Below, piece by piece: positions 11,924 to 19,438 of a stretch of DNA of 59,406 nt. A program made the translations under genes and the position numbers. The notes under the pieces were generated by a model that was not told the origin of the DNA, ran no database searches, and saw only the letters and a program-made list of their open reading frames with translations. Each line of letters starts with the position of its first letter. Within the stretch, counting starts at the first letter, position 1. The stretch covers positions 1 to 59,406 of the forward strand of contig JALSRD010000050.1 in NCBI GenBank assembly GCA_026984935.1, in the 5' to 3' direction. This stretch comes from Desulfobacterales bacterium. GTDB lineage: Bacteria > Desulfobacterota > Desulfobacteria > Desulfobacterales > JALSRD01.

Positions 11924-11968
11924 ATTTAAAGGCCGTTGAATCAACCGGGCGCACAGGAGATGGACGCC

Positions 11969-12199
11969 ATGGCACAGATCCAGCTCAAGCTGTTCGCATC
12001 GCTGCAAAAGTATGCCGCCCGGATACCGCCGCGCTGCGAGATCACGGCCGGTGCAAGGCTGCGCGACGTCATTGCCCGCCTGCAGATTCCGGCTGAAAAC
12101 ATCCGGCTCGTCTTTGTCGACGGCCGGCGCAGCAGCCTGGATACAACCCTGCAGGGCGGCGAACGGGTGGGCCTTTTCCCGCCCGTAGGCGGAGGATAG
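11969..12199 (+). CDS. MoaD/ThiS-type sulfur-carrier protein
   Basis: A 76-aa beta-grasp protein ending in the diagnostic Gly-Gly (PPVGGG), which is adenylated by an E1-like enzyme and then thiocarboxylated. The fold is visible as IQLKLFASLQKYA, RLRDVIARLQI, VFVDGRR and the GGERVGLFPPVGGG end. AGGAG nine bases upstream supports the ATG at 11969; an ATG at 11960 is too close to it. The E1-like gene follows after four bases, so the pair forms a unit. Whether it serves molybdopterin/tungstopterin, thiamine or another pathway cannot be decided here. Confidence 0.85.
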   Translation: MAQIQLKLFASLQKYAARIPPRCEITAGARLRDVIARLQIPAENIRLVFVDGRRSSLDTTLQGGERVGLFPPVGGG

Positions 12200-12203
12200 G
12201 GGC

Positions 12204-13067
12204 ATGCCCAAGAAAAAACTGGCGGCCGCCATTGCGGCGGCGGCCGGCAAAAGCGCATTTCCCGACGATACCCCGTGCAGTGTTATTTCCTGCGCACAGG
12301 TCCGCCGGCTGGCCGAAGCTTTCGATATCGGGGACCGTCTTGTCGAAATCCAGAGCCTGCGGACCGGTGTGGTGCCCGAGCGCTACATGCGCAACATGCG
12401 CGCCTACAGCCGCGATGACCAGGCCCGGCTGCTGGAAGCACGCGTGGGGATCGTCGGCCTGGGCGGGCTAGGGGGCAGCGTCGTCGAAATCCTGGCGCGT
12501 CTGGGTATCGGGCACCTGACGCTGATCGACGGTGACATCTTCGAAGACAGCAACCTCAACCGCCAGCTGCTTTCCACCGTCGACCTGCTGGGCAGCGCCA
12601 AGGCGCCGGCGGCGGCCGCACGCGTGCGCGCCATCAACCCTTCCCTGTCCGTCGTGCTGCAGGCTGTATTTTTAAACGCCGAAAACGGTCCGGAACTACT
12701 GGCATCATCGGATGTCGTCGTTGACTGTCTGGACAGCATCGACAGCCGGCGCACCCTGCAGGCCGTCTGCCGCGACCTGGAGGTCCCGCTGGTTTCGGCG
12801 GCCGTCGCCGGGGCATCCGGCCAGCTGGCCACCATTTTCCCCGAAGACCCGGGATTCGACCTGATCTATGGAGCGCCCGCCGCGGGTCAGCCCCAAAAAG
12901 GCGCCGAGGCTTCGCTGGGAACCCTCCCCTTTGCCGTCATGCTCATGGCATCCCTGGAATGCGCCGAAGTCGCCCGTATCCTGCTGAAAAAAGAAAGCCG
13001 GTTGCAAAACCGGCTGCTGGTCGTCGATCTGAACGACTACACACTGGATCTTTTCCGGCTGGCCTGA
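12204..13067 (+). CDS. ThiF/MoeB/HesA-family E1-like adenylyltransferase
   Basis: A 287-aa E1-like enzyme predicted to adenylate the C-terminal glycine of the adjacent sulfur carrier. It has the nucleotide motif GIVGLGGLGGSVVEILARLG, then DGDIFEDSNLNRQ (Asp and Arg of the ATP site), and DCLDSIDSRR. A 60-residue N-terminal extension precedes the domain. The usual MoeB Zn-binding CxxC pairs and the catalytic Cys after the crossover loop are not visible: the segment is YGAPAAGQPQKGAEASLG. This suggests a HesA-like member that only adenylates. It directly follows the MoaD-like gene. Confidence 0.85.
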   Translation: MPKKKLAAAIAAAAGKSAFPDDTPCSVISCAQVRRLAEAFDIGDRLVEIQSLRTGVVPERYMRNMRAYSRDDQARLLEARVGIVGLGGLGGSVVEILARLGIGHLTLIDGDIFEDSNLNRQLLSTVDLLGSAKAPAAAARVRAINPSLSVVLQAVFLNAENGPELLASSDVVVDCLDSIDSRRTLQAVCRDLEVPLVSAAVAGASGQLATIFPEDPGFDLIYGAPAAGQPQKGAEASLGTLPFAVMLMASLECAEVARILLKKESRLQNRLLVVDLNDYTLDLFRLA

Positions 13068-14708: not shown

Positions 14709-15032
14709 CTACGCCAGTATTTTCACCGTAAAGAACATGACGATGAGTCCGGCACCGATGACGGCTGCCCATATCACCCATGTCGCGAGGTTGCCGCCGT
14801 CTTCCTGCCGCGCACTGGATTTGGAAAACAAAAAACCCAGGATCACGAAAACCGCCAGCACCACGACGCCGTGACCGATCCAGTGGTGCCAGAATACCAA
14901 CGCCAGCACGTCATGAACAGCTTCTATTTTTTCCTTGAGAATCGTCAATACCCCGTTAAAAATCATCGCCACGATCAATGCGTAGCCGAAACCCCTTGTG
15001 TAATTGTCCATACTCTGTCGTTGCTCAGCCAT
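14709..15032 (-). CDS. Small membrane protein of unknown function
   Basis: A 107-aa protein with three predicted membrane helices (about residues 15-32, 48-68 and 84-104) and a His pair in FWHHWIGHG at the second helix. I do not recognise the family. It is 14 bp downstream of the 151-aa membrane protein, so the two form an operon ending at the terminator near 14.6 kb. The His residues in helices could bind a metal or haem, but that is only a possibility. Confidence 0.75.
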   Translation of the reverse strand: MAEQRQSMDNYTRGFGYALIVAMIFNGVLTILKEKIEAVHDVLALVFWHHWIGHGVVVLAVFVILGFLFSKSSARQEDGGNLATWVIWAAVIGAGLIVMFFTVKILA

Positions 15033-15046
15033 TTCGATCTCCTCAG

Positions 15047-15502
15047 CTATTTAAGCAGTCCCTGTTTTACACCCATGGCGATAATCGAACCGAATCCCTC
15101 CATGGCCAGGGCAATTACCACGATCATGGCCGAAACGGCCACTGACAACTTCCTCGCACTTTTGTTGGCCAGCAGGTTGTTCCTTTTGACGACGATCGGC
15201 AGATACGTCGCCAACAGGAGCACGATGAAAAACAGATGTTCTTTCACTTCCATAAAATAATTATGCGCCCAGGGCCAGTTCCCCGCTTTTATGACGGCTT
15301 TGTCTGCCCCATAGTGAAAAACATAGAACCATCCGCCGATGAGATAGGCCGCCCATATCAGGCCAAAAGTCCACATCGCTGCAAGCTTGATCCTTTCGGT
15401 ATTGTTTTCACGTACATTCAGCAGCTCAACGGTCACCCACAGGGCCGCCAACGCGCTCAATCCCCCTACGGTCGCATGAACTAATAATTGGATCACCGGC
15501 AT
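15047..15502 (-). CDS. Four-helix membrane protein of unknown function
   Basis: A 151-aa protein with about four membrane helices (residues 8-25, 43-62, 90-108, 122-142). A soluble-looking segment YGADKAVIKAGNWPWAHNYF and a charged MEVKEHLF stretch sit before the third helix. GGAGG precedes the ATG. It is the first gene of a two-gene unit with its own promoter at 15586-15614. Family not recognised; a helper of a respiratory or redox system is conceivable. Confidence 0.75.
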   Translation of the reverse strand: MPVIQLLVHATVGGLSALAALWVTVELLNVRENNTERIKLAAMWTFGLIWAAYLIGGWFYVFHYGADKAVIKAGNWPWAHNYFMEVKEHLFFIVLLLATYLPIVVKRNNLLANKSARKLSVAVSAMIVVIALAMEGFGSIIAMGVKQGLLK

Positions 15503-15704: not shown

Positions 15705-16394
15705 TTAAGGATGCTTGAGCACCTTGATGATTTTGGGGATGAACAGTGAAAACACAAACAGGCCCAATGAAAAAAACACCTTGACGGAAAGAAGCGCGTG
15801 CCAGTTTCCGCTGACCCAGGCCGATTTCAGCGTACCGATGAAAAAGATAAAAATGAAAGTGCCGGTCAGGATGCCCAGGGCAGTGCCGCAGAAGTAACCC
15901 CGAAAGGATACCCGCGTCAGCCCCATGCCGAAATTCATCGGCGTAAAGGGGAAGTAGAGCAGGCGCAGGTAGAGAACCGTTGCAAAGCCGTTGCGTGCGA
16001 TGGCGTCGTCGTATTTTTTGAGTCGGTCCCCAATCAGCGCGGCGGCAAACTCGCGACCCAGGTAACGGCCGATAAAAAATGCGGCGCTGGCTCCGGCCAG
16101 GGCGCCGACCCAGACGTAGACGAATCCCCAGTAAGGGCCGAAAAAGACGGCACCCAGCGCCCCCAGCACGGTTCCAGGAACAAACAAACAGACACCCAGG
16201 GCATAAATCACCATGAACAGCAACGGTGCCCAGAAACCGGCCGCTTGCAGAAAACTTCCCATGCGCGCAACGGTCAGCAGCTCTTTTGCCGCTGAAAAGC
16301 GCACTACGATGACCGCCCCCGCCACCAAGGCTACCAGCACCATGGCTTTTATGCGGGCGCGCCGCCGGCTCTTGAGGTTTTCGATGTCATCCAT
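15705..16394 (-). CDS. TVP38/TMEM64 (VTT-domain) membrane protein
   Basis: A 229-aa integral membrane protein of the VTT/DedA-like superfamily. It shows the family motifs FVPGTVLGALGAVFFGPYWG and the GR-x-LGREF-type re-entrant region (FFIGRYLGREFAAALIG), followed by FPFTPMNFGMGLTRVSFRGY. In other bacteria such proteins are often next to mercuric-reductase-like or selenium/thiol genes, but their substrate is unsettled. It is the last gene of the ArsR-led minus-strand operon, 27 bp after the 105-aa selenoprotein gene. Confidence 0.88.
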   Translation of the reverse strand: MDDIENLKSRRRARIKAMVLVALVAGAVIVVRFSAAKELLTVARMGSFLQAAGFWAPLLFMVIYALGVCLFVPGTVLGALGAVFFGPYWGFVYVWVGALAGASAAFFIGRYLGREFAAALIGDRLKKYDDAIARNGFATVLYLRLLYFPFTPMNFGMGLTRVSFRGYFCGTALGILTGTFIFIFFIGTLKSAWVSGNWHALLSVKVFFSLGLFVFSLFIPKIIKVLKHP

Positions 16395-16421
16395 GGCCTG
16401 AATCGGGCGCTAATGCCGCTT

Positions 16422-16739
16422 TCAGCGCTTCAGCAGCCGACCCAGCACACCCTTTTTAGCAGCCTCCGGCTTTTCCAGCCCCAGGTGACGGCAGATGACC
16501 GACTCCAGTTTTTCCTGGGATACATCTCCGCCCTCCACCACGATCTCGTCGGCCACCATGACGGCCGGCGCCACCGGCAGGTCCAGCTCAAAATATTCGT
16601 CGGTCATGTACTCTGCCTTGGGCCTGGAGGTGGTTTCGATTTCGATGTCGTATTTTTCTCCCAGCACGGGGATCATCTTTTTGAAGTGCTTTCAGGGCTT
16701 GCCGTTGGGCTCGTTATAAAAGAATCGTACTTTGAGCAT
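16422..16739 (-). CDS. Thioredoxin-fold selenoprotein with UGA-encoded selenocysteine
   Basis: A 105-aa protein if the TGA at 16694-16692 is read as selenocysteine (U16). The ATG at 16739 has a near-perfect AAGGAGG five bases upstream, whereas the internal ATG at 16676 has none. Initiation therefore lies before the UGA. The product starts MLKVRFFYNEPNGKP-U-KHFKKM, with a beta strand, an active-site loop with U where the second Cys of CxxC would be, and a cis-Pro-like segment LPVAPAVMVADEIVVEGG. This is the layout of small thioredoxin-like proteins. A short UCCC/GGGA hairpin with loop CGUGCU begins 19 bases after UGA and puts its loop 23 bases away, in the bacterial SECIS range. The gene is fourth in the ArsR operon, 17 bp after the rhodanese-DsbD gene. 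Confidence 0.85.
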
Positions 16740-16756
16740 CGCTGCCTCCTTGGGTT

Positions 16757-18514
16757 TCAGTTTGGTGGATTGGTGGTAAAAAATCGGCTGATTTCCGTCA
16801 TACGCACCAAAAAAGGGCCGGGCGGCATAAAGTCCACCAGGCGCAGATCACGCCGTTCTTTGCCGTAGGGATCGATGAAAACAACCGTGGGAACCCCTCT
16901 GATGTCAAACTGCTTCAGCAGTCTTGCATGGACGGGATTGCCCTTGCGCGTCAGATCCACCTTAATCAGGATAAAATTCTGCTTTGACCGCTTGACGATT
17001 TCAGGATCACGAAAGGTGATCTCATCCAGTTCCCGGCAAGGGGCGCACCAGACAGCGGAAAAATCGATGATCACCGGCTTTTTCCGAGCCGCCGCTTCCT
17101 TGAGCAATTGATCCGAGTAAGGGTGCCAGATCGCGCCGGGCCCGGCCAGGATCAGTGAGCCGGCCAGAAAGGTTGCCGTTACCAGTCCGGCTATACCGGC
17201 AGCTGTTTGCATCCATTCAAAGGCTTTGAAATTCGCCCGTGTACGGTCGATCCAGCACAGATGCAGACCAGCTCCCAGAGCCACGGCCGCCAAGACGATG
17301 TCACCGACTATTTTCGTCAGCACCGGACGAATGAAATAAGCCGCCATGCCCACCAGCACCCACCCCATGAGCTTGCGTACCCAGATCATCCACTCGCCGC
17401 TGCGTGGCAGCTTGTCGAGTTTTCCGGAGAACAACGCCAGCAGGAACAGGGGCACTCCCAGACCCAGGCTGAGGGTGAAGAACACCAGAAATCCCACATA
17501 GGGGTTGCCCATGCCGGCCACCCACGTCAGCAGCCCCAGCACAAAAGGACCGATGCAGGGCGCTGCCACCACCCCCAGGGTGATCCCCATAAAAATACTG
17601 CCAAAATAGCCGGTATAGGACTTGGAAGCGGCCTGGGTCAGTCCCTGGGGCAGCCTGAACTCCCAGAATCCAAACATGCTGCTGGCAAATGCCAGCAGAA
17701 CAACCGCCACCGCCGCCAGCACCAGTGGATTCTGCAGCATAGCCCCCATGAGCCCACCGGTAAGGGCGGCGGCCACCCCCAGGCTGGAATTGGTCAAGGC
17801 CAGCCCGCCCACGTAGCACAGGCCATGGGCCAAAGTCCGCCCCTTGCCTTTGGAGCTGCGCCCGCCAAAGTATGAGACGGTAATGGGAATCAGGGGATAG
17901 ACGCAGGGGGTCAGGTTCAGCGCCATGCCGCCTAAGAAAATACCCAGCAGGGTCCAGACCATGGACCAACCCGCCAGGGAACCGTAGTTTTTTTGCGGCC
18001 CTTCCGTGGACAGCGGTTGAGACGGCGATCGTTCCACTGGAAAGCCGCTTGCTTTCCAATCCGGATATCCTTTGGGCTCACGGTATACGTTTTCGTATCC
18101 CAGCGCTGCGGCCACCCGGGCCGCCGAGTCACTGCGGACTCATGTCAAGCCCGCTCAGTAAAAAATGATGAGGCGTTGCTTGTCAGGGCCCAGAAACTTT
18201 GCCAGCGCACCCTTTTTGCGCCAGCGTGCCCACCAGGTGGGCTCCATGGGAAAATTTGCCGCCCCCTTGATGTGCCCGGTGCGGTACTCCCACTCCTGAC
18301 GGGTATCCACAATGAAGACATCATTCGATTTCTTCTGTTGCAGTTTCCATAGCCTGCCGGTATCGATCAGGCGATATCCGCCCCTTTGGGCCTCGGCGAT
18401 AACGTCCTCCGGGGTGGCCTTTTTCACCACGATGGGGCGATTTTGAAACCACAAAGCGTAGAACGTGACACCCACGGCCAGAACCGCCAAAATAATCGAC
18501 TTGGTTTTCTGCAT
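16757..18514 (-). CDS. Rhodanese-DsbD-thioredoxin fusion with two in-frame UGA (selenocysteine) codons
   Basis: Read through two TGAs (18157-18155 and 18142-18140) this is one 585-aa protein. An N-terminal signal anchor (residues 5-24) places a rhodanese domain (about 35-160) in the periplasm. Its active-site region reads LIIFY-U120-AGLT-U125-VRSDSAARVAAALG; the first U sits exactly at the rhodanese catalytic Cys and the second at a Cys common in relatives. The DsbD/CcdA membrane domain follows, with Cys in NLTPC204 and VVAAPC320, then a periplasmic thioredoxin domain with WC490APC493. The rhodanese seems to take the place of the DsbD alpha domain, so electrons from cytoplasmic thioredoxin could reach a selenium-based periplasmic site. 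Treated as two genes, the second would begin mid-domain at a GTG without a ribosome-binding site. It is third in the ArsR operon. Confidence 0.9.
18093..18118 (-). promoter_or_regulatory. Candidate SECIS hairpin inside the rhodanese-DsbD coding sequence
   Basis: Downstream of both UGA codons the mRNA can form GCGGCC / GGCCGC with loop CGGGU. The loop is about 21 bases after the second UGA and 36 after the first. Both distances lie in the range reported for bacterial SECIS elements (roughly 16-37). One hairpin could thus serve both codons. A further stem GCGGGCU/AGUCCGC starts right at the first UGA. Position is approximate and no folding program was run. Confidence 0.5.
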
Positions 18515-18526
18515 TAAAAATCCTCG

Positions 18527-18976
18527 TTAGAGCTTCCCCTCTGTTTTCAGCTTGGTGATGAGAAACGCCGCTCCGGCGTAAGAAACACCCAGTTTTTCTC
18601 CGAGTATCCGGGGGTCCAGCGCCACCCCCTGAGCGACAATCGTAATGACCTCGGCTTCGAGTTCTTCCAGCCAGTCTTCAAACAGCACCAGTACATCCGG
18701 ATCCGCCACCGCCTGCAACTGCTCGGAGCGCGCCACCTTGTTCACCAGGCTCTGGCACATGTCTTTTGGATCGACACCTTCGTCCATGCAGGTGGCCAGT
18801 CAGAGGTGCACCAGGCCGGGCACGCTCCCTTTGTCGGCATCCCCGGTCAGCGCGCAAATAAAGTCCAGGCGCACCTTCTCGCTGACATGCGCAAACAGGC
18901 CCTTAACCACTTGGGCGATCTCGCCCATGGCCCGTTCGGGATCCATTGCCTCTACAATCCTTCCGATGCTCTTCAT
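18527..18976 (-). CDS. Uncharacterised selenoprotein with U-x3-C motif
   Basis: Reading the TGA at 18802-18800 as selenocysteine gives a 149-aa, all-helical-looking soluble protein starting MKSIGRIVEAMDPERAMGEI. The motif is LVHL-U59-LATC, followed by MDEGVDPKDMCQSLVNKVA. The frame is continuous on both sides of the TGA and the amino-acid composition is uniform, which argues against two separate genes. A GGGGG stretch about ten bases upstream of the ATG may act as ribosome-binding site. No family recognised. It lies 35 bp after arsR and 12 bp before the rhodanese-DsbD gene, so it is second in the operon. A good SECIS hairpin is less clear here than for its neighbours. Confidence 0.8.
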
Positions 18977-19011
18977 GAAATGTTATTCCCCCTTTATCTG
19001 ACCGTTATGGT

Positions 19012-19338
19012 TCAAAAGCCTTTGCGGTTGCTCAGCAGATCCGCTGCCAGTTCGGCCACCTGCTGCAGGATCTCGACAATTCTGGCATCTGCCAGTTCAT
19101 AGTAAATGAAAGGCCCTTTACGTTCCACCTGGACCAGCAGCGAGCGCTTGAGTTCTCTCAGGTGGTGGGACACCAACGGCTGGGAAAGCCCCACCTCTTC
19201 GACAATGCGCGAGACCGACTTCTTGCCGCCGTCTAAACACAGCAGAATGCGCAGACGGTTTTCATCCGACAGGCTCTTTGCCAGAACGGCCAGCGCCCCG
19301 AGGTCGCGAAATACCGTCTGCCCGTTGATGTCCGTCAA
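19012..19338 (-). CDS. ArsR-family winged-helix repressor
   Basis: A 108-aa ArsR/SmtB-type regulator: LAKSLSDENRLRILLCLDGG, then the recognition helix region VGLSQPLVSHHLRELKRSLL, and a beta wing VERKGPFIYYEL. The only Cys is in LLCLDGG at helix 3, so the classical ELCVCDL metal site is missing. The inducer may be bound elsewhere or be a redox or organometalloid signal. It is the first gene of the selenoprotein operon and presumably binds the inverted repeat at 19399-19418 to control itself. Similar sites at 42.85 and 52.70 kb could make it a regulator of those operons too. Confidence 0.9.
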   Translation of the reverse strand: MTDINGQTVFRDLGALAVLAKSLSDENRLRILLCLDGGKKSVSRIVEEVGLSQPLVSHHLRELKRSLLVQVERKGPFIYYELADARIVEILQQVAELAADLLSNRKGF

Positions 19339-19398: not shown

Positions 19399-19438
19399 AT
19401 ATAAATATACGTTTATATTAAAGCCGGCCGGGTGTCAA
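19399..19438 (-). promoter_or_regulatory. Promoter and ArsR-type operator of the selenoprotein operon
   Basis: A perfect inverted repeat ATATAAA-N6-TTTATAT (19399-19418) sits about 60 bp upstream of arsR. On the minus strand TTGACA (19438-19433) precedes it, and the operator covers the -10 region. The best -10 (TATAAA) is at 15 bases, less ideal than in the two sister promoters. Confidence 0.6.

Follow-up and report, generated by a model that had tools for sequence, protein, structure and literature searches.

A possible selenocysteine-based partner for the ArsR-family repressor of the Tso operon in a Desulfobacterales bacterium

A stretch of 59,406 nucleotides from a Desulfobacterales bacterium (contig JALSRD010000050.1 of assembly GCA_026984935.1), here called the window, carries on its minus strand a run of five genes, namely tsoR, tsoA, tsoB, tsoC and a gene for a VTT-domain protein (VTT), separated by gaps of 35, 12, 17 and 27 bp. 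We found that the ArsR-family protein TsoR and the selenoprotein TsoA are kept together while the genes behind them vary, and their pairing also where TsoB is missing is, as judged from the genomes compared here, a new observation. Our preferred reading, held at slightly under even chances, is that the operon deals with reactive sulfur (or metalloids) and that TsoA assists TsoR in sensing. Somewhat more tentatively, the two may constitute a selenocysteine (Sec)-based, two-protein switch of the ArsR type, in which TsoR contacts the operator and a winged-helix TsoA with an invariant Sec-x3-Cys acts as the sensor, forming a portable module that governs varied sulfur/metalloid gene sets across Desulfobacterota. 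The operon is not new as such: it is a member of the already described Tso kind, because genes 1–4 are named TsoR, TsoA, TsoB and TsoC by NCBIfam models, all above the curated cut-offs, and because a 2026 review (PMC13188914) holds an entry for 'Tso (three selenoprotein operon)', attributed there to Haft & Tolstoy 2025 (10.1128/msystems.01417-24). In the literature consulted we met no statement on what the operon does.

TsoR, TsoA and the operator

Among 395 genomes of the phylum, 46 had a TsoA match, which was above the cut-off in 33, and among 194 genomes of the same order, 32 had a TsoB above its cut-off. In this first set TsoR stood upstream of full-length TsoA in all 46 loci, with gaps of 5–345 bp. 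An overlapping set, referred to as the named loci, was made up of the best 80 of 144 TsoA relatives from a scan of GTDB contigs, where one bin gave two loci (L176 and L182); the record titles were deltaproteobacterial (Desulfo- and Syntrophobacter-type), with two reading just 'Proteobacteria'. TsoR preceded TsoA on the same strand in 79 of these 80 loci, the exception (L223) starting 96 bp before tsoA, and the gaps were 18–65 bp in 77 cases and 174 and 186 bp in the other two. TsoB followed TsoA within 2.5 kb in 40 of the 74 named loci having more than 1.2 kb downstream; using a laxer profile limit, it was present in 42 and missing in 32. Looking upstream of TsoB in 47 first-set loci, we found TsoR together with TsoA in 28, TsoR only in 1, an ArsR-rhodanese fusion in 9, neither in 7 and a contig end in 2, with no locus of the 47 having both the TsoR–TsoA pair and the fusion directly upstream. 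Seven shorter TsoA relatives without the Sec region (L122–L128) also lie behind TsoR-type genes, with a VTT gene in between in L127 and L128. In L122, L124 and L126 a Met-rich or Met/Cys stretch replaces the Sec region, and these are perhaps metal-binding versions of the partner.

Sec59 and Cys63 of TsoA are invariant in 46 sequences, with Cys74 kept in at least 90%. The predicted structure is all-helical (mean predicted local distance difference test score, pLDDT, 81; predicted template modelling score, pTM, 0.41), with block means of at least 90 from residue 101 on. Residues 97–149 matched winged helices with Foldseek probabilities up to 0.96, at E-values of 0.6 or higher, and with VIA-align Z up to 7.5, the matches including DeoR, Lrp, BirA, CadC and Z-alpha as well as winged-helix-like parts of the COP9 signalosome. 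Of the 46 TsoA members, 22 matched HTH_24 with E-values up to 0.1, the best being 1.5e-7. The C-terminus is predicted, with scores that agree but are middling, to be a winged helix, and TsoA looks like a possible regulator. Comparing the profiles of TsoA and TsoR gave a 20% homology probability confined to residues 23–57, which is a lead.

An earlier note, made from the letters of the window, had proposed a tight five-gene unit led by an ArsR-family gene with an inverted-repeat operator, and both were confirmed, the operator being a perfect palindrome (Table 1). It is the only match in the window at up to two mismatches (mean 0.02 in shuffled sequences) and the sole zero-mismatch match in the genome. 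With one mismatch allowed, 59 of 76 named loci had the operator at most 1.4 kb upstream of tsoR, and 61 sites occurred in 0.90 Mb vs 3 for the reversed sequence. The operator probably lies over the −10 region, where a repressor would be expected to bind, since a TTGAC starts 19–24 nt before it at 41 of the 59 sites, the reversed word CAGTT occurring once in the stretches scanned. A further operator copy lies between tsoA and tsoB in L120, L138 and L140, the second of which has no copy before tsoR; this arrangement would group tsoA with the regulator, and tsoB may there start a unit of its own.

Elsewhere in the genome, three operator-like sites were found at one mismatch vs one for the reversed pattern. 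Two of them were set aside, as they lie in or near unrelated genes. The remaining one (C35:91867-91886, the same site as L143:1501-1520) precedes a Met/Gly-rich Metal_resist (Spy/CpxP-like) gene followed by a SHOCT gene, and this pair is a possible second TsoR target, albeit a weak one because the reversed control pattern also matches once. In L148 a small membrane protein encoded directly behind tsoA is, by eye, similar to the Metal_resist-type gene product.

The idea of arsenic control in the canonical ArsR form, to which the family name points, was not supported. No conserved Cys column was found among the invariant or 90% columns of 42 aligned TsoR-type sequences, and in 29 of 102 distinct TsoR the matched region contains no Cys at all. 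The classical thiolate site of ArsR/SmtB metal(loid) sensors is not seen in TsoR, having no conserved Cys ligands, and judging from these alignments TsoR is unlikely to be a lone sensor of the usual type.

Table 1. Features of the Tso operon in the window
Feature	Position	Strand	Basis
Operator palindrome ATATAAA-N6-TTTATAT, contains −10-like TATAAA	19399..19418	minus	perfect palindrome ahead of tsoR
−35-like TTGACA, 20 nt before operator	19433..19438	minus	read from window sequence
tsoR, ArsR-family repressor, TTG start	19012..19338	minus	NF045707 161 bits, cut-off 115; PF01022 44.8 bits, cut-off 22
tsoA, selenoprotein, 149 aa, LULAxC motif, predicted C-terminal winged helix	18527..18976	minus	NF045695 207.5 bits, cut-off 170
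TsoA Sec codon U59	18800-18802	minus	in-frame UGA
tsoB, rhodanese with Sec-x4-Sec, DsbD membrane domain and WCAPC thioredoxin domain	16757..18514	minus	NF045694 992 bits, cut-off 805
TsoB Sec codons U120, U125	18155-18157, 18140-18142	minus	in-frame UGA
Hairpin GCGGCC[CGGGT]GGCCGC, candidate bSECIS for both tsoB UGA codons	18108..18124	minus	six apical pairs
tsoC, thioredoxin-fold selenoprotein, NEPxGxxU motif	16422..16739	minus	NF045708 150 bits, cut-off 45
TsoC Sec codon U16	16692-16694	minus	in-frame UGA
Small hairpin TCCC[CGTGCT]GGGA, candidate tsoC bSECIS	16659..16672	minus	score 7, under the 8 used for counting
VTT-domain membrane protein (TVP38/DedA-like)	15705..16394	minus	PF09335 85.5 bits, cut-off 33.9 (gathering score)

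Genes behind the pair and their selenocysteine codons

Within 3 kb behind tsoA in the 32 TsoB-less loci, we found TsoC in 12, an SQR-like flavoprotein in 8, ArsM-like genes in 5, DsrE, FA-hydroxylase-like genes and TsoY in 4 each, TauE and VTT in 1 each, and none of the sought families in 6. These counts rest on small home-made profiles, with identities checked on examples. SQR-like, DsrE or TauE genes, taken together, occurred in 13 of the 32 loci. With 97 bits, the SQR-like protein was far from the 525 bits required by the type III SQR selenoprotein model. As far as such neighbourhoods can tell, sulfur-related genes appear to be the commonest theme behind TsoR–TsoA, with metalloid-type genes occurring too, and metalloids remain in play because of the ArsM-like methyltransferase genes.

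The conservation of gene order elsewhere, which the earlier note had suggested as a check, was borne out, with R-A-B-C-VTT (tsoC single or doubled) seen in 14 of the 31 TsoB loci having more than 3 kb behind TsoB and R-A-B-VTT in 2 more. The notion of a dedicated, co-regulated selenoprotein unit is thereby supported, in the form already described as Tso, and control of thiol redox state by the operon is plausible. In the same 31 loci TsoB was followed by TsoC in 29, by at least two TsoC in 11 and by VTT in 16; the part of the earlier proposal that concerned VTT thus stands insofar as this gene is a frequent though optional member. The loci L042, L044, L102, L105, L109, L113, L115, L137 and L138 have two or three paralogues of TsoC, all with a UGA in frame; usually one paralogue carries a TDEYFELDL stretch and one is divergent. 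In L041, L044, L053, L054 and L058, tsoC or VTT is followed by a gene for a GcvH-related protein (NF045810, as tested with the copy of L054). In the window itself, two small membrane-type proteins of 151 and 107 aa, without any Pfam match above the cut-off, are encoded at 14709-15502 on the minus strand, flanked by the VTT gene and that of an MFS transporter, and genes for a ThiS-like sulfur carrier and then a ThiF-family enzyme lie on the plus strand at 11936-13067, about 2.6 kb past the VTT end of the operon. The VTT gene had no NCBIfam family match.

According to Pfam, TsoB is composed of a rhodanese, a DsbD membrane domain (PF02683, 147.6 bits) and a thioredoxin domain. Positions invariant in 32 of 32 TsoB sequences are 120 and 125 (Sec) together with 204, 233, 320, 490 and 493 (Cys), the last two forming the WCAPC pair. 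The TsoC model (pLDDT 91.5, pTM 0.80) has a thioredoxin fold and matched thioredoxins in Foldseek with probability 1.00 (best E 2.2e-3, none below 0.001). No CxxC or UxxC site was found in TsoC, which has a single Sec16 and, among 51 sequences, no conserved Cys partner column.

The four in-frame UGA codons that had been proposed for genes two to four (one, two and one, respectively) were all verified, with the families matching across each UGA, and the host genome encodes three components of the machinery for Sec insertion (SelB 387 bits, SelA 614 bits, tRNA-Sec 76 bits, each above its cut-off). Two in-frame TGA codons were present in TsoB in each of the 32 genomes with an above-cut-off protein. 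One in-frame UGA is present in 108 of 109 distinct full-length TsoA sequences, the remaining one (L176) having Arg, and no Cys-for-Sec variant was seen among them. The bin of L176 also holds a UGA-bearing second copy (L182), and the Arg form is perhaps a decayed paralogue.

As for bacterial Sec insertion sequence (bSECIS) elements, a scan of the window with Rfam gave nothing at the gathering threshold. The six apical pairs of the tsoB hairpin behind the second UGA were kept in 45 of 47 testable TsoB rows, using rows with two UGA five codons apart, where 3 of 50 rows were not testable. Because its loop starts 36 nt behind the first UGA and 21 nt behind the second, a single bSECIS may serve both codons. 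When longer hairpins below −6 kcal/mol were counted, an excess was found for TsoB (67/95 vs 35/100 controls) and TsoA (32/46 vs 34/106) and none for TsoC (12/52 vs 37/106). A shorter-stem definition, devised after that result and counting scores of at least 8, gave 48/48 and 46/47 for TsoB and 47/52 for TsoC, with 27–31% at control positions, and little excess for TsoA (16/46 vs 28% of control positions). Part of the excess reflects protein conservation, since the stems fall in conserved codons.

Proposed mechanism and alternative explanations

In the mechanism that we propose, TsoR would be a repressor bound to the palindrome over the promoter, and TsoA, translated right after it, would be its sensory partner, with Sec59-x3-Cys63 (and Cys74) reacting with the inducing signal. 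That signal would most likely be sulfane sulfur, in the form of polysulfide or persulfide, and less likely an As, Se or Te species. The TsoA winged helix would then alter TsoR or DNA binding, and the induced genes would remove the stressor. Electrons may pass from thioredoxin via the membrane part of TsoB, which is of the DsbD type (Cys204/Cys320), and the WCAPC domain to an outward-facing rhodanese, where the two Sec residues would pick up a sulfur (or metalloid) atom carried by the substrate and set it free in reduced form. TsoC would carry out a one-Sec, thioredoxin-type reduction in the cytoplasm, with VTT as an accessory membrane transporter. A gene for thioredoxin reductase (trxB) precedes tsoR in seven named loci.

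Several observations weigh against such a sensory role of TsoA. The window's own TsoA has no Pfam match, HTH_24 included, the Foldseek E-values are weak, the pTM is low, and Z stays below 8, a range that the tool itself rates as middling. An operator copy between tsoA and tsoB is confined to three loci of one family and was found, at up to one mismatch, in the tsoA–tsoB intergenic region of none of the 80 named loci, where tsoA appears co-transcribed with the genes that follow. The operator lies ahead of trxB in only three of the seven named loci with trxB before tsoR. The ArsM-like (5/32) and TsoY (4/32) genes of the TsoB-less loci do not point to sulfur, six of these 32 loci lack all sought families, and the tsoA bSECIS depends on the definition used.

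It is possible, if doubtful, that TsoA is instead a pathway enzyme or carrier, for example a seleno-metallochaperone or a sulfur carrier, linked to TsoR by mere gene order at the operon head. Its invariant Sec-x3-Cys dyad is typical of redox centres and tsoA is close to the following genes in many loci, but the TsoR–TsoA pair stays constant while the downstream genes vary (TsoB in 40 of 74), the C-terminus is predicted to be a winged helix, and the seven shorter relatives, having no Sec region, are also found behind TsoR-type genes.

Detoxification of arsenic or antimony (or selenite or tellurite), with TsoR–TsoA sensing the metalloid by selenolate/thiolates and TsoB and TsoC reducing it, is in our judgment unlikely. 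TsoR does belong to the ArsR family, ArsM-like methyltransferase genes occur behind the pair, ArsD is found among the Foldseek matches of TsoC (rank 34, E 7.6e-3) and the one-mismatch operator before the Metal_resist and SHOCT genes is in the same genome; set against this are the lack of conserved Cys in TsoR, the SQR-like, DsrE and TauE neighbours, and the five genes themselves, none of which received an arsenic pump or arsenate reductase label from Pfam or NCBIfam. Less probable still is general periplasmic thiol repair, where TsoB would act like DsbD in reducing envelope proteins that are oxidised or persulfidated, and would have no small-molecule substrate. The DsbD membrane and WCAPC domains and the trxB genes before tsoR would suit such a role, but the N-terminal domain of TsoB is a rhodanese and the full-length DsbD model PRK00293 reaches 248.8 bits vs a cut-off of 330.

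If the TsoR–TsoA reading is true, selenium is used for sensing and not only for catalysis, and the Tso system gains a signal, an operator (19399-19418) and a regulon that can be tested directly. A Sec-based sensor of the ArsR type was not proposed in the titles and abstract openings listed by full-text literature searches, and the original Tso paper may say more; the nearest among the items listed, from a table of the review (PMC13188914), is a selenoprotein of the FmdB family described as a 'putative regulatory protein'.

Comparison with known systems

Compared with the Tso operon as entered in the review (PMC13188914), the window proteins share the Sec motifs LULAxC, UxxxxU and NEPxGxxU. All four NCBIfam members (NF045707, NF045695, NF045694 and NF045708) are present, with VTT as a fifth gene outside these families. 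With DsbD, TsoB shares the membrane domain with conserved Cys and the C-terminal CxxC thioredoxin domain; it differs by its N-terminal rhodanese with two Sec and by scoring below the full-length DsbD cut-off. The ArsR-rhodanese fusion that replaces TsoR–TsoA in 9 of 47 TsoB loci has a loop with C-x4-C (YCRGPYC) that parallels the U-x4-U (YUAGLTU) of TsoB and is, unlike TsoR–TsoA, a single Cys-based protein without TsoA. The 11 fusion genes examined had no palindrome copy in the 400 bp upstream, even with one mismatch allowed. An SqrR-like Cys pair in the fusion was considered and dropped, as by eye Cys36 lies off the SqrR Cys column of the alignments and no match was seen for Cys88 either.

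The PDB matches of TsoR include BigR (3pqj) and the 6o8k/6o8l chains, which we take to be SqrR. TsoR differs from SqrR and BigR in having no conserved Cys pair and reaches only 40.7 bits with the BigR model, having a cut-off of 155. Tso nonetheless resembles the sulfide-responsive repressors SqrR, BigR and YgaV in that an ArsR-type gene heads an operon with a rhodanese, YgaVP being described as a sulfide-responsive ArsR-type regulator with a rhodanese (PMC9774250), and because of this precedent sulfane sulfur is our lead for the substrate. In Tso, the possible sensor would be a separate protein, TsoA.

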